A DNA stretch of 64,000 nucleotides from Bdellovibrio bacteriovorus (lineage in GTDB: Bacteria; Bdellovibrionota; Bdellovibrionia; Bdellovibrionales; Bdellovibrionaceae). The position numbers and the translations under genes were made by a program. Shown here piece after piece: positions 7,123 to 11,456 of this stretch. The notes under the pieces were generated by a model, which was not told where the DNA came from, ran no database searches, and was given only the letters and a program-made list of their open reading frames with translations. Position 1 is the stretch's first letter. Every line of letters starts with the position of its first letter. The stretch is taken from assembly GCF_002208115.1 (NCBI RefSeq), contig NZ_CP020946.1:3224001-3288000 (forward strand). The letters run 5' to 3'.

Positions 7123-7886
7123 CAAGCCACCAGTTTTTCTAGATCCAGAACCATAATACTGCGGCGGTCTTTGATGAAAAACTGGTGAACAAAGTTCGCA
7201 GACATCATAGTGGATTGGTTTTCAAAATTTTGCAGATCAGCTTCTTTGACGCTGATCATGTCTTCAGTGTCTGTGACCTGCAGGCAGAAACGAACCCCCT
7301 GCTCTTCACAGATCACATAGAAGAAATTATCGGCATCCATCCGGGCAAAACCATGATCCTGCAGGTTGACCACCGGCACGGCTTCGCCGCGGAATGGAAT
7401 CACACCCAAAAGACCCTCTTTTCTTTCCGGCAGATCAAACAGCGGCAACTTGCCGCTGATTTCGATCACACTTAAAATCGGCACCGCAAATTCCTGCACC
7501 CCAAAACGGCAGTGCAGCAGCAGAATTTCACGCAAGTTCTGCGCATTCAGCGCAAAACGTGTCGCCAGATCGGCGGTGTCGGTCTTGTCAATTCCCAGAG
7601 CTTCAATATAGCCCCGCAGAGTTTTCAAGGCTTTGATCAACTCCGCAGCCCCTTCCAGGTTGCGGCTCTTTTCATCAAAACCTTCCAGCCATTCAGCCAG
7701 ATGCATAAACTCATTTGTCTTGGCATCCACCGCCCAGGCGCGTGTTTGCTCGCTGACCTCTGACAGAATACGGCGCCACAGCTTTTCGTCGGTCAGATCG
7801 ATGAACTTGTCTATTTCCTTGATCACACTGTCCAGGAAATACGCTTTGAGTTCCGCTGTAAAGTCATCACCGAAGAAATCACTCAT
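7122..7886 (-). CDS. cheW: CheW-domain chemotaxis coupling protein with N-terminal extension
   Basis: 254 residues. The C-terminal half (about 115-250) is a CheW fold: CRFGVQEFAVPILSVIEI, GLLGVIPFRGEAVPVVNLQ and a final RSIMVLDLEKLV strand. It links CheA to chemoreceptors in the membrane array. The N-terminal 110 residues are helical, contain repeated acidic and Leu-rich stretches and have no recognised family, so the protein is longer than a plain CheW of about 160 residues. It overlaps cheA by 4 bases (ATGA), which implies translational coupling. The role of the N-terminal helix bundle is unknown. Confidence 0.88.
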   Translation of the reverse strand: MSDFFGDDFTAELKAYFLDSVIKEIDKFIDLTDEKLWRRILSEVSEQTRAWAVDAKTNEFMHLAEWLEGFDEKSRNLEGAAELIKALKTLRGYIEALGIDKTDTADLATRFALNAQNLREILLLHCRFGVQEFAVPILSVIEISGKLPLFDLPERKEGLLGVIPFRGEAVPVVNLQDHGFARMDADNFFYVICEEQGVRFCLQVTDTEDMISVKEADLQNFENQSTMMSANFVHQFFIKDRRSIMVLDLEKLVA

Positions 7887-9619
7887 GCGGCCTCCTCGTG
7901 CGTTTGCTGTTCATACATCATCAAAGCCATCATTTTTTCCGGATCCACAATGTAGGTCACTTTTTCGTCCGCCAGGATGGAAATGCCCTTAAAGCCCTTT
8001 TGTTCCCCGATCATCGAACCAAAGGACTTAACGACCAGATCGGTCTGGGCCTCGATACGATCCACCAACAGGGCAAACACGGCCTCTTTCAGGCGGATAA
8101 ACACGGCCGAAGACTTGCGAACCGCCTCTTCCGGTACCGAGGTGCGCAGGTTCAGGATCTCGTGATAGTTCAAAATAGGCACAGTCATTCCACTGAACTG
8201 ACAATAGCGCAGATGATCCACAGTGGTGATCTGCAATTCGTCACACGATGTGATGTGCGCCACGGAAGTCAAAGGCACCGCCAACTGGTAAGAGTTCCAC
8301 GCACACAGCAAGGCGCTTTCCACCATGATGTGCTGAGGAATTGGAATTTCCAGGTGGAAGGCCGCCCCGGCCCCCGGATGATTTTCAATATGAATGCGGC
8401 CTTTGTATCTTTCCACGGTGGAAAGAACGATATCCATCCCGACACCACGGCCGGAGATGGTTGTGACTTTTTCTTTCGTCGAAAACCCGGCATTGAAAAT
8501 GAACTTGTAAATCTGCTCATCGCTCAGGGCTTTGGCGGCGTCTTCGGTCACCAGGGCATTTTTGACCGCGCGCTGAAGAATACGCTCACGATCCAGCCCC
8601 TTGCCGTCGTCTTTAAAGATCACGTGAACAGCGCCGTTTTTTTCATGCACGTCCAGGCATAGCAAACCAATCGTCGGCTTCCCCTGCACGGCTCTTTCAA
8701 ACTGATCCTCGATCCCGTGATCGATGGAATTTCGCACCAGATGCACAAGACACTCATAAAGATCTTTGCCAAGGCCCTTGTCGATCAGAAGCTCCGAGCC
8801 GGTGAACTCCAGATGAACGCTCTTATTCAGCTCTGTCGAAGCCTGGCGCACCAGAAGCGGCAGACCGGAAAGACTGTCCCCGGCTTTTTCCTTGCGGACC
8901 GTCTGCACCTGGCCCTGGAACTGATCGCAGATTTTCCCCAGATTCTGGGCAAAATCATTCTGACGACGTTCAAAGACCTCGGGCTGAATCCGGAAGTTCA
9001 CCGTCTGATTCATCATCTGGAAGAAATTTTTCAACACCAGAAGCTCGCCGGACAGTCGCAGGAATTCATTCAGTTGTTTTACGGACAGCCACACACCCTC
9101 CTCATCAGAGGCCGAGGTCGTGCGGCTGACAGCGGGACGCGGGCTGCGAACAGCCGACTCATCCCCGAAATCAAAAACTCCGTAAGCGGAAATCACCTCA
9201 ATGGCTTCACTGAGCTCTTCCGGATAAACTTCACGCTTGTCGCGCAGGCTTTGCGCCAGAACTTTCAAAATGCGTGAGCTTTTCAGGAACAGATCAATGC
9301 AGTCCTTGGTGACCGGACGGGATTCACGTTTGATGCGAGTTAAAAGAGCTTCAAATTCGTGAGCAAGGGAACCCAGCAACTGTCCGCCGGGAACAGCCCC
9401 CACACTGCCTTTGATGGTGTGAATTTTTCGGAAAAGGACATTCACCTGATCCTGATCTTCCGGATTGTTTTCCAGCTTCAGAATCAGATTGTCGAGATCT
9501 TCCAGAATTTCCTTGGACTCTTCGAAGAACGCACGGGACACCTCTTCGACCTGTTCAAAGTCGATAAAGGCAGAAAGATCCACCTCTTGGTTGTCCTGGG
9601 GTTTGTTTTCGTCCGACAT
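7883..9619 (-). CDS. cheA: Chemotaxis histidine kinase CheA
   Basis: 578 residues. P1 Hpt domain with phospho-acceptor His 67 (RKIHTIKGSVGA), a short linker, then the dimerisation and HATPase domains (N-box HLVRNSIDHGIE, G-boxes DDGKGLD and GRGVGMD) and a C-terminal CheW-like P5 domain (about 440-565). No P2 CheY-binding domain is evident between P1 and P3, where the linker is short. It phosphorylates CheY and the receiver of the CheD-CheB fusion. It is the first gene of the operon cheA-cheW-cheD/B-ALDH. A sigma-28-like promoter lies immediately upstream and no Shine-Dalgarno is seen, so its mRNA may be nearly leaderless. Confidence 0.95.
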   Translation of the reverse strand: MSDENKPQDNQEVDLSAFIDFEQVEEVSRAFFEESKEILEDLDNLILKLENNPEDQDQVNVLFRKIHTIKGSVGAVPGGQLLGSLAHEFEALLTRIKRESRPVTKDCIDLFLKSSRILKVLAQSLRDKREVYPEELSEAIEVISAYGVFDFGDESAVRSPRPAVSRTTSASDEEGVWLSVKQLNEFLRLSGELLVLKNFFQMMNQTVNFRIQPEVFERRQNDFAQNLGKICDQFQGQVQTVRKEKAGDSLSGLPLLVRQASTELNKSVHLEFTGSELLIDKGLGKDLYECLVHLVRNSIDHGIEDQFERAVQGKPTIGLLCLDVHEKNGAVHVIFKDDGKGLDRERILQRAVKNALVTEDAAKALSDEQIYKFIFNAGFSTKEKVTTISGRGVGMDIVLSTVERYKGRIHIENHPGAGAAFHLEIPIPQHIMVESALLCAWNSYQLAVPLTSVAHITSCDELQITTVDHLRYCQFSGMTVPILNYHEILNLRTSVPEEAVRKSSAVFIRLKEAVFALLVDRIEAQTDLVVKSFGSMIGEQKGFKGISILADEKVTYIVDPEKMMALMMYEQQTHEEAA

Positions 9620-9656: not shown

Positions 9657-9710
9657 GAACGGCAGGCAGTTTATTTAGGCCAGATTTGAATTACAAGTGC
9701 CACAAATAAG

Positions 9711-9734
9711 AAGAGCGACCTTACGGTCGCTCTT
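9711..9734 (-). terminator. Intrinsic terminator of the short transcript upstream of cheA
   Basis: Perfect stem AAGAGCGACC / GGTCGCTCTT with a 4-base loop. On the minus strand it is followed by a T-rich tail (CTTATTTGT). It ends the short transcription unit at 9864-9705 and separates it from the cheA promoter. Confidence 0.7.
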
Positions 9735-9759
9735 AGGTTTATGATTCTTTCGAACCCTC

Positions 9760-9799
9760 GGCGAAGGTCTAGGCGTCCTAAGAGGACGTCACCTCCGCC
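9760..9799 (-). ncRNA. Structured RNA segment of the short transcript upstream of cheA
   Basis: On the minus strand GGCGGAGGT (9799-9791) pairs with ACCTTCGCC (9768-9760) over 9 bases with one G-U. Inside it CGTCC / GGACG forms a second 5-base stem around the loop TCTTA, which holds the stop codon of the short reading frame 9778-9825. With the promoter-like TTGTGG-18-TAGTAT (9871-9900) and the terminator at 9711-9734 it makes a complete short transcription unit of about 160 bases. The rest of the 328-base gap between cheA and the di-haem gene holds no other gene that I can see. Confidence 0.5.
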
Positions 9800-9825
9800 T
9801 TGGTTATGTCTACGTTTTTAACCAT
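9778..9825 (-). CDS. Candidate 15-residue peptide with perfect Shine-Dalgarno
   Basis: ATG at 9825 reads 15 codons (MVKNVDITKAEVTSS) to TAG. The start is preceded 8 bases upstream by TAAGGAGGTGAT, a complete match to the 16S anti-Shine-Dalgarno, unusually strong compared with neighbouring genes. The last five codons run into the stable stem-loop. It could be a leader-type peptide, a very small protein or an RNA whose ribosome binding is the function. Confidence 0.4.
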   Translation of the reverse strand: MVKNVDITKAEVTSS

Positions 9826-9870
9826 AAGCATCACCTCCTTACCAGCCCCAATAGAAGCTTAGATATGATG

Positions 9871-9900
9871 ATACTATGTCTGAACTGTCTTTTGCCACAA
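9871..9900 (-). promoter_or_regulatory. Candidate sigma-70 promoter of the short transcript
   Basis: On the minus strand TTGTGG, 18 bases, TAGTAT. The predicted start near 9864 gives a 39-base leader before the 15-residue frame. Confidence 0.35.
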
Positions 9901-9947: not shown

Positions 9948-11456
9948 TTACAACGACTTGATGAACTGAATCAAAGCGGAACGATCCGCTTTGGGAAGTC
10001 GTGCGAATTTGTTTTTCGAGTACTCCGCTTCGCCCCCGTGCCACAAGATAGCCTCTTCCAAAGTGCGCGCACGACCGTCATGCAGGAAGCCCGCGCGAGG
10101 GTTGATGGTTTGAGTGTGCCCCATGCCCCACAAAGGACGAGTTTTCCATTCGCGGCCGTCAGCATCGAAATCCTGGCGACCGTCGGCCAGACCATCCCCC
10201 ATGTCATGTAAAAGCATGTCGGTGTATGGATAGATCTTCTGATTCGCGAACGCTTTGATCGGGTGATCTCCGGTTGTGAAGCTTGGCTGGTGACAGGTTG
10301 TGCAACTGACCTGATGGAAAATCCCCGCACCGCGGATCACTTCGGCTTCAGTCGCCCCACGACGAGCCGGGACTGCCAGGGTCTGAGAATAAAATACGAT
10401 GTCGTTGGCAACCTGATCCGTGGCTTCCAACCCGGCATGAGGTTCACGGCCCGTACGGTAAGCATCATACAACGGAGTTCCCGCGATGCTTTCATCCGGG
10501 AAGGCATAGTTCGTCACACCGATATCACCACGCAAAGCCCCCAAAGACTGGTGCAATACAGAGGGTGTGTTGTTCTTCAAGCCGAAACGACCCATGGAAA
10601 CCGGGTACGGATCACCCGCCATGCTTTTTTCGATATCAAACACCCAGTTGGCTTTTCCGGAAACACCTTCGGCAGACAAATCACGCTGGGCCAAAGCCAA
10701 AATGTCGGCTTCTTTGATCGCCTCAAGCAAACCCAAACCAATCATCGGCGTCCCGATACGTGCGCCCATGCGAACGTCTTTTTCATAAAGACGGCTTTTC
10801 ATTTCGCCAGTCACAGAATCAAAGTACTCATCATACGCGCCGGTGACTTTAAACACAGGCTTGCGAAGCTCCACCACATCCCCGTCAGGATAGGTGAACT
10901 GGGACTTTTCGTACTTCATCCAGACTTGCGCCTGACCTGTGCCCGGAAGATCCTCCCGAACCCCCAAAGAACCCAGGTGGAACAATTGATCCGAAAAACC
11001 CGGAACCGGCACCGGAGCGCCGAATTTATTTTCTTTTGTTTTTGGTTTCTTCACACCGTCTTCGATGCTGATACGCAGGAAGACCGCTTCATTCTGGCGC
11101 AAAGGCACCCATTCTTTATTGAAAGGAACCACCGGCAAAGCACCACGGCCATCTTTGGCGTGGCAGGCGTTACAACTGGTGTTGTTGTGGACCGGACCCA
11201 AACCGTATTCGAAACGGTTCGGATCATCAGAGAAATTTCTCTCAAAAAGAGCGTCGCCCGTCAGGTGACGAGCGATCTCTTCTTCAGACAAATTTGCAGC
11301 CGGGTTACGGAAGGCCCAGATGGACTGGCCTTTGAAAAACACTGTGGTCTCGCCACCGGATTTCTCCGCGTGAACATAGTCCATGTCAATTTGAGGAGCA
11401 GCAACCGCCGCCCCTGCCATGAAATTCAAAACAGTCAGTACAATCCAAGCCTTCAT
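9948..11456 (-). CDS. Di-haem c-type cytochrome oxidoreductase (DUF1111 / thiol oxidoreductase family)
   Basis: 502 residues with signal peptide (cleavage near AAVAA, residue 20). Two haem c sites: CNACH at 95-99 and CTTCH near 384-388. The length, the conserved PVVPFNKEWVPLR-type region and the C-terminal RPLWGMGHTQTINPRAGFLHDGRA match the di-haem oxidoreductase family often found next to imelysin-like proteins. It acts in the periplasm. It is the third gene of the porin-imelysin-cytochrome operon, 12 bases after imelysin, suggesting a joint role in metal (iron) acquisition or redox handling. Substrate unknown. Confidence 0.88.
   Translation of the reverse strand: MKAWIVLTVLNFMAGAAVAAPQIDMDYVHAEKSGGETTVFFKGQSIWAFRNPAANLSEEEIARHLTGDALFERNFSDDPNRFEYGLGPVHNNTSCNACHAKDGRGALPVVPFNKEWVPLRQNEAVFLRISIEDGVKKPKTKENKFGAPVPVPGFSDQLFHLGSLGVREDLPGTGQAQVWMKYEKSQFTYPDGDVVELRKPVFKVTGAYDEYFDSVTGEMKSRLYEKDVRMGARIGTPMIGLGLLEAIKEADILALAQRDLSAEGVSGKANWVFDIEKSMAGDPYPVSMGRFGLKNNTPSVLHQSLGALRGDIGVTNYAFPDESIAGTPLYDAYRTGREPHAGLEATDQVANDIVFYSQTLAVPARRGATEAEVIRGAGIFHQVSCTTCHQPSFTTGDHPIKAFANQKIYPYTDMLLHDMGDGLADGRQDFDADGREWKTRPLWGMGHTQTINPRAGFLHDGRARTLEEAILWHGGEAEYSKNKFARLPKADRSALIQFIKSL

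Follow-up and report, generated by a model that had tools for sequence, protein, structure and literature searches.

The DNA analyzed here, a window of 64,000 nucleotides from Bdellovibrio bacteriovorus, contains on its minus strand a compact transcription unit (~9860-9705), which is located between a gene for a di-haem oxidoreductase (9948-11456) and cheA (7883-9619), whose product has CheW, HATPase and Hpt domains. A previous sequence-only reading had described a promoter, a Shine-Dalgarno (SD) sequence, a short frame, a nested stem and an intrinsic terminator in this region, and all of these elements were found on the minus strand (Table 1). In particular, the full match to the anti-SD sequence (TAAGGAGGTGAT, 9841-9830), the 15-codon frame, whose TAG falls within the apical loop of a 9+5 bp stem, and the intrinsic terminator were confirmed. 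Our analysis added three features: hairpins at the 5' end (P1) and at the start codon (P2), both with covariation, and a further SD-like sequence (SD2), which is located inside the frame and precedes the stop codon by a fixed distance.

Table 1. Features of the transcription unit, in window coordinates
Feature	Position	Strand	Basis
-10 box TATCAT	9868..9873	-	7 nt before the position matching HD100 start 535,188
Transcription start	9860	-	Orthology; exact match to HD100 APsRNA2 start 535,188 (PMC3627812, Table 2)
P1, 5' hairpin AGCUUC-UAUU-GGGGCU	9844..9859	-	Arm-swap test
SD1 UAAGGAGGUGAU, complement of 16S 3' tail	9830..9841	-	Own 16S end GGATCACCTCCTTTCT
15-codon frame MVKNVDITKAEVTSS*, TAG stop	9778..9825	-	Frame kept across relatives
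P2, hairpin UGGUUA...UAACCA around start codon region	9801..9824	-	Arm-swap test
SD2, GGAGG inside frame, 8 nt before last sense codon	9792..9796	-	Unbiased pattern set
P3/P4, 9+5 bp stem (5' arm contains SD2; loop contains stop codon)	9760..9799	-	Pair counts and arm-swap test
Small hairpin GGUUC-GAAA-GAAUC	9743..9756	-	MFE fold; present in most genus members
Intrinsic terminator AAGAGCGACC-GUAA-GGUCGCUCUU and T-rich tail	9705..9734	-	Stem 9734-9711

The RNA is an orthologue (96% identity) of APsRNA2 of B. bacteriovorus HD100, listed in Table 2 of PMC3627812 as a 134 nt transcript at 535,188-535,321 (+). Locus, strand and 5' end all agree, and position 9860 of the window is the A directly before P1. 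Given this correspondence, transcription of the window should yield the same RNA. Because the HD100 start maps to 9860, the -10 box should be TATCAT and not TAGTAT. Thus, the promoter proposed earlier, TTGTGG (9900-9895) followed after 18 nt by TAGTAT (9876-9871), is present as letters, but its -10 box had to be moved three bases downstream. A TANNNT motif occurs just upstream of P1 in 60 of the 85 distinct relatives, compared with 19% of random places. The proposal of a compact structured transcript is borne out by the predicted fold (-64.1 kcal/mol versus -42.7 kcal/mol for dinucleotide shuffles; z = -5.4, 0/200) and by the published HD100 transcript (PMC3627812). That proposal had been tied to the existence of a transcript and to conservation of the stem and frame in related genomes, and stem and frame are indeed conserved. 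The view that the RNA belongs to no known class holds for Rfam 15, where no family scored above its gathering threshold and relaxed thresholds gave only sub-threshold matches, but not for the literature, where the transcript had been reported as APsRNA2. The sole Rfam gathering match was c-di-GMP-I and was located in merRNA of HD100.

According to PMC3627812, APsRNA2 reaches 8,869 RPKM when HD100 is in attack phase and 204 RPKM in growth phase, a 43-fold difference, i.e., the RNA is made mainly in attack phase. This expression would suit a sponge that titrates ribosomes in non-growing attack-phase cells, one of the options raised by the sequence-only reading, and so would the strength of SD1, which is the strongest SD in the window (duplex of -21.0 kcal versus -17.7 kcal for the best SD among 47 long window ORFs). 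However, the same source gives ~2.0 million RPKM for merRNA, stated as twice tmRNA, so APsRNA2 is probably present in far fewer copies than ribosomes, although short RNAs may be under-counted. Titration is therefore disfavored, and we consider it highly unlikely.

Relatives were detected by DNA search in other genera and in 21 of the 24 genomes of the genus, the remaining three congeners giving no match in this search. A covariance model of the core recovered 67 of 369 Bdellovibrionota genomes at E < 1e-3, plus weaker ones; relatives occur across the order as well as in other classes of the phylum. One large family yielded no convincing match in ~130 genomes, and the RNA appears to be absent there. 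In nearly all congeners cheA lies just downstream on the same strand, an arrangement that would fit a cis-attenuator or leader of cheA; a leader-peptide RNA was among the options of the sequence-only reading. However, in other genera and phyla the downstream genes are unrelated, and the RNA is followed by a terminator, which was found within 160 nt of the stop codon in 51 of the 85 distinct relatives versus 1.4% of random places. The RNA gene is thus free-standing, and the chance that it serves as a cheA leader is very slight. More generally, the RNA lacks the consistent downstream gene expected for a cis-acting leader peptide or attenuator (cheA in the genus, other genes in other genera and phyla).

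Two minor observations concern the flanks. In some congeners (four loci), the terminator stem is lengthened by a CGAUGAGCACCGGAAACGGAUCC-like sequence with a GNRA-type loop. In several genera (five loci), the upstream gene codes for the same protein, recognized by a shared 21-residue stretch and HIT-like by eye; a 60-aa fragment of this protein had no Pfam matches. This gene probably marks an older neighborhood of the RNA.

The core columns of SD1 are invariant phylum-wide, and SD1 is most frequently separated from the start codon by 7 or 8 nt. The frame that follows has 12-21 codons among relatives; its start, stop and phase are constant, and the peptide sequence varies. Two genus members have 6-nt in-frame insertions that preserve the frame, and 1-nt indels occur outside it, immediately upstream of the start codon and immediately downstream of the stop. 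Judged from these sequences, the frame is very probably translated.

For SD2, we used an unbiased pattern that names only SD1, an ATG and a later GGAGG and specifies neither a stop codon nor any spacing. It matched 59 of 359 Bdellovibrionota genomes (one match for the reversed-pattern control). In all 55 distinct Bdellovibrionota sequences, the frame opened by the first ATG reaches its stop at most a few codons after the last GGAGG. In 47 of these 55, which have 40 different intervening tails, exactly 8 nt separate the end of this GGAGG from the last sense codon; in the remainder the distance is 4, 5 or 7 nt. Only the unbiased sets are taken to support this spacing, because the first covariance-model hits were biased to it. 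Given the usual spacing of SD1, the 8 nt of SD2 imply the same geometry at the last codon read by the ribosome as at the first. Changes of A to G are tolerated in SD2 where anti-SD pairing is kept; GGGGG, for example, retains it through wobble pairing. Re-initiation was rejected as an explanation of SD2, since inspection of the alignments showed no start codon conserved at a distance from it that would suit initiation. Programmed recoding was rejected as well: the frame is not conserved beyond the stop codon, and the length from the stop to the P3 arm changes by 1-2 nt from one close relative to another.

The coding capacity of the frame raises the possibility of a small-protein gene, which would act through its peptide of 12-21 residues and use the structures to adjust expression. 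The conserved start, frame and stop agree with this, as do two features seen in two phyla, namely the ending xEVxxS*, which recurs, and bodies rich in S, D, H, C and Y. However, the conserved residues coincide with the nucleotides of P2 and SD2, and the loop codons are free to vary within the genus. In addition, the Glu codon in SD2 is always GAG (GAG 71, GAA 0), whereas elsewhere in the same frames GAA prevails over GAG (15 versus 6), and Gly is allowed at this place if GGGGG keeps the SD pairing. The constraint on SD2 therefore acts on nucleotides and not on amino acids, and a gene of this kind seems unlikely, though it deserves some weight. The frame bodies are rich in Ser (mostly AGU, in Chloroflexota too), Asp, His, Cys, Tyr and Asn, i.e., in NAY, AGY and UGY codons.

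The GGA sites in SD1 and SD2 also resemble binding sites of CsrA, whose consensus is ANGGANGU; AAGGAGGU fits it, and the RNA might then sequester CsrA/RsmA. However, GGA is not invariant. Many relatives have GGGGG at SD1 or SD2, by which GGA is lost and anti-SD pairing is kept, and sequestration would leave both the frame and its stop spacing unexplained. We rejected this candidate, which is scarcely credible.

RNAalifold found no consensus pairs in a phylum-wide MAFFT alignment, because P2 slides relative to SD1. We therefore used arm-swap tests, in which the pairing energy of arms with their own partner is compared, by permutation, with that for partners from other relatives; the relatives in these and the other conservation counts are not independent samples. 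P1, which is part of the Bdellovibrionota anatomy, had -7.5 kcal with its own partner and -4.0 kcal when swapped among 68 non-genus relatives (0/10000 permutations). For P2 the values were -10.1 versus -6.9 kcal in Bdellovibrionota (0/10000) and -14.4 versus -11.2 kcal in Chloroflexota (0/20000), and for P3 they were -15.9 versus -14.2 kcal (0/10000). Pair counts among the first 25 sequences agree with the support for P1, P2 and P3. Pairing of SD1 with the 3' region showed no covariation (-11.4 versus -11.5 kcal; 7730/10000).

The 3' arm of P3 is pyrimidine-rich (ACCUUCGCC), conserved and complementary to SD-like sequence, and could be the seed of a base-pairing sRNA directed against SD regions of mRNAs; translation would then merely expose the seed. 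The attack-phase expression in HD100 (PMC3627812) is also in line with such a role. However, pairing with SD2 already explains this arm, and the arm drifts in length and position between genera. We regard such an sRNA as quite unlikely.

When 84,980 species were scanned with patterns, the same architecture was found in Chloroflexota; the distribution survey covered only some phyla, including Bdellovibrionota, Chloroflexota and Armatimonadota. The unbiased pattern matched 35 of 301 Chloroflexota genomes (reversed-pattern control, 0), and 18 of the 23 distinct loci examined were mini-ORFs in which SD2 precedes the last codon by 5, 7 or 8 nt. P2 is often a long perfect stem in this phylum, e.g., GGUGAUGCCCAUG and its complement, with GGAGG directly after. 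In one group of Chloroflexota loci (MDxHSRS...LEVTSS), a GCUACG motif recurs downstream of the stop codon and ahead of the terminator. In Armatimonadota, 11 genomes matched versus five control matches, and two sequence families recur; this phylum, less securely, carries similar mini-genes. Two Tenericutes hits were rejected as ordinary neighboring SDs.

The start signal, the start-codon hairpin and the stop-spaced SD2 thus recur in Bdellovibrionota and Chloroflexota, which suggests that translation is the purpose of the RNA. As the comparisons show, an unusually long SD1 is offered to the 30S subunit, the start region lies in the conserved P2, the frame is short and, when no ribosome is present, SD2 is paired in P3. 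When the stop codon occupies the A site, the anti-SD of the ribosome would stand opposite SD2 at the initiation spacing of 8 nt that is usual in relatives. It is possible, if somewhat short of probable, that the function depends on translation in the following way: one ribosome is loaded, is held at the stop codon and switches P2 and P3. The ribosome would load at SD1, open P2 and read 12-21 codons whose sequence is of little importance. SD2 may then hold it at the stop codon, as the spacing suggests. The held ribosome would keep P3 open, and P2 would refold behind it, so that each RNA would carry about one ribosome. The outcome would be a ribosome-gated switch, in which occupancy controls either the exposure of a particular 3' segment or the lifetime of the RNA. 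A function of the peptide could also explain the bias of these frames to S, T, D, N, H, C and Y, and this counts against a model based on translation only. A translated regulatory RNA is the best of the explanations considered, ahead of ribosome titration, CsrA sequestration, recoding and attenuation in cis, and of the options raised by the sequence-only reading it is the structured regulatory RNA that found support, as a structured and translated small RNA.

The strength of ribosome pausing by SD-like sequences is debated. Bacterial ribosomes are able to pair with SD-like stretches within coding frames, and footprints on such sequences can reflect footprint length instead of pausing (PMC6377232). 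Unrecycled ribosomes remain at stop codons (PMC7538156). Holding at the stop codon is therefore compatible with known biology.

Several known systems share parts of this design. As with leader peptides and attenuators such as trpL, ermCL and tnaC, the position of a ribosome on a short ORF would choose between RNA structures, but here no cis gene is consistently regulated and a terminator follows the RNA. The recoding signals of prfB and dnaX likewise have an internal SD at a set distance (3 or ~10) from a critical codon, whereas the spacing here is 8, no slippery site is seen and the downstream frame is not conserved. Dual-function sRNAs and other sRNAs with short ORFs (surveyed in PMC5521070) are also small free-standing transcripts with a conserved, probably translated short ORF, and the RNA does have a conserved translatable frame. 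It differs from them in that the peptide sequence is not the main conserved feature, and it has in addition a stop-pinned second SD and a start-codon hairpin. The closest relative is APsRNA2 itself, which shares locus, strand and start. PMC3627812 classes it as non-coding with no homologues found outside B. bacteriovorus, and its text, as far as available, describes neither the frame, SD2, P1-P3 nor the wide distribution, all four of which were found here.

A published "non-coding" attack-phase RNA thus carries a conserved translatable frame, and its family spans at least two phyla without an Rfam entry. The fixed distance from SD2 to the stop codon is a clean quantitative constraint, and SD-like holding of a terminating ribosome can be tested by a single synonymous base change. 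The RNA also offers a genetic handle on the attack-to-growth switch in a predatory bacterium. It is conceivable, though rather doubtful, that it belongs to a widespread and unrecognized class of mini-genes in Bdellovibrionota, Chloroflexota and perhaps Armatimonadota whose product would be the act of translation itself: a super-SD would load the ribosome, a stop-spaced second SD would clamp it and the RNA would be switched.

Other attack-phase RNAs of HD100 contain frames. APsRNA6 (1,338,787-1,339,441) and APsRNA7 (3,416,607-3,416,881), both classed as non-coding in PMC3627812, have good ORFs with SD-like sequences and therefore look like small-protein mRNAs; by eye, the products are an ~89-aa membrane-like protein (MNTELGAFA...) and a lipoprotein-like peptide (MLNRGSFSF...), respectively. 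APsRNA5 (605,441-605,617, minus strand), which the same source gives as >5000-fold up in attack phase, starts with TCTGCGAAAGGAGCCTTGAATGGCTAAAAAGCATG; the peptide that it encodes, MAKKHVVRKEYIWNREIRELALLTETGPP*, is short and basic.
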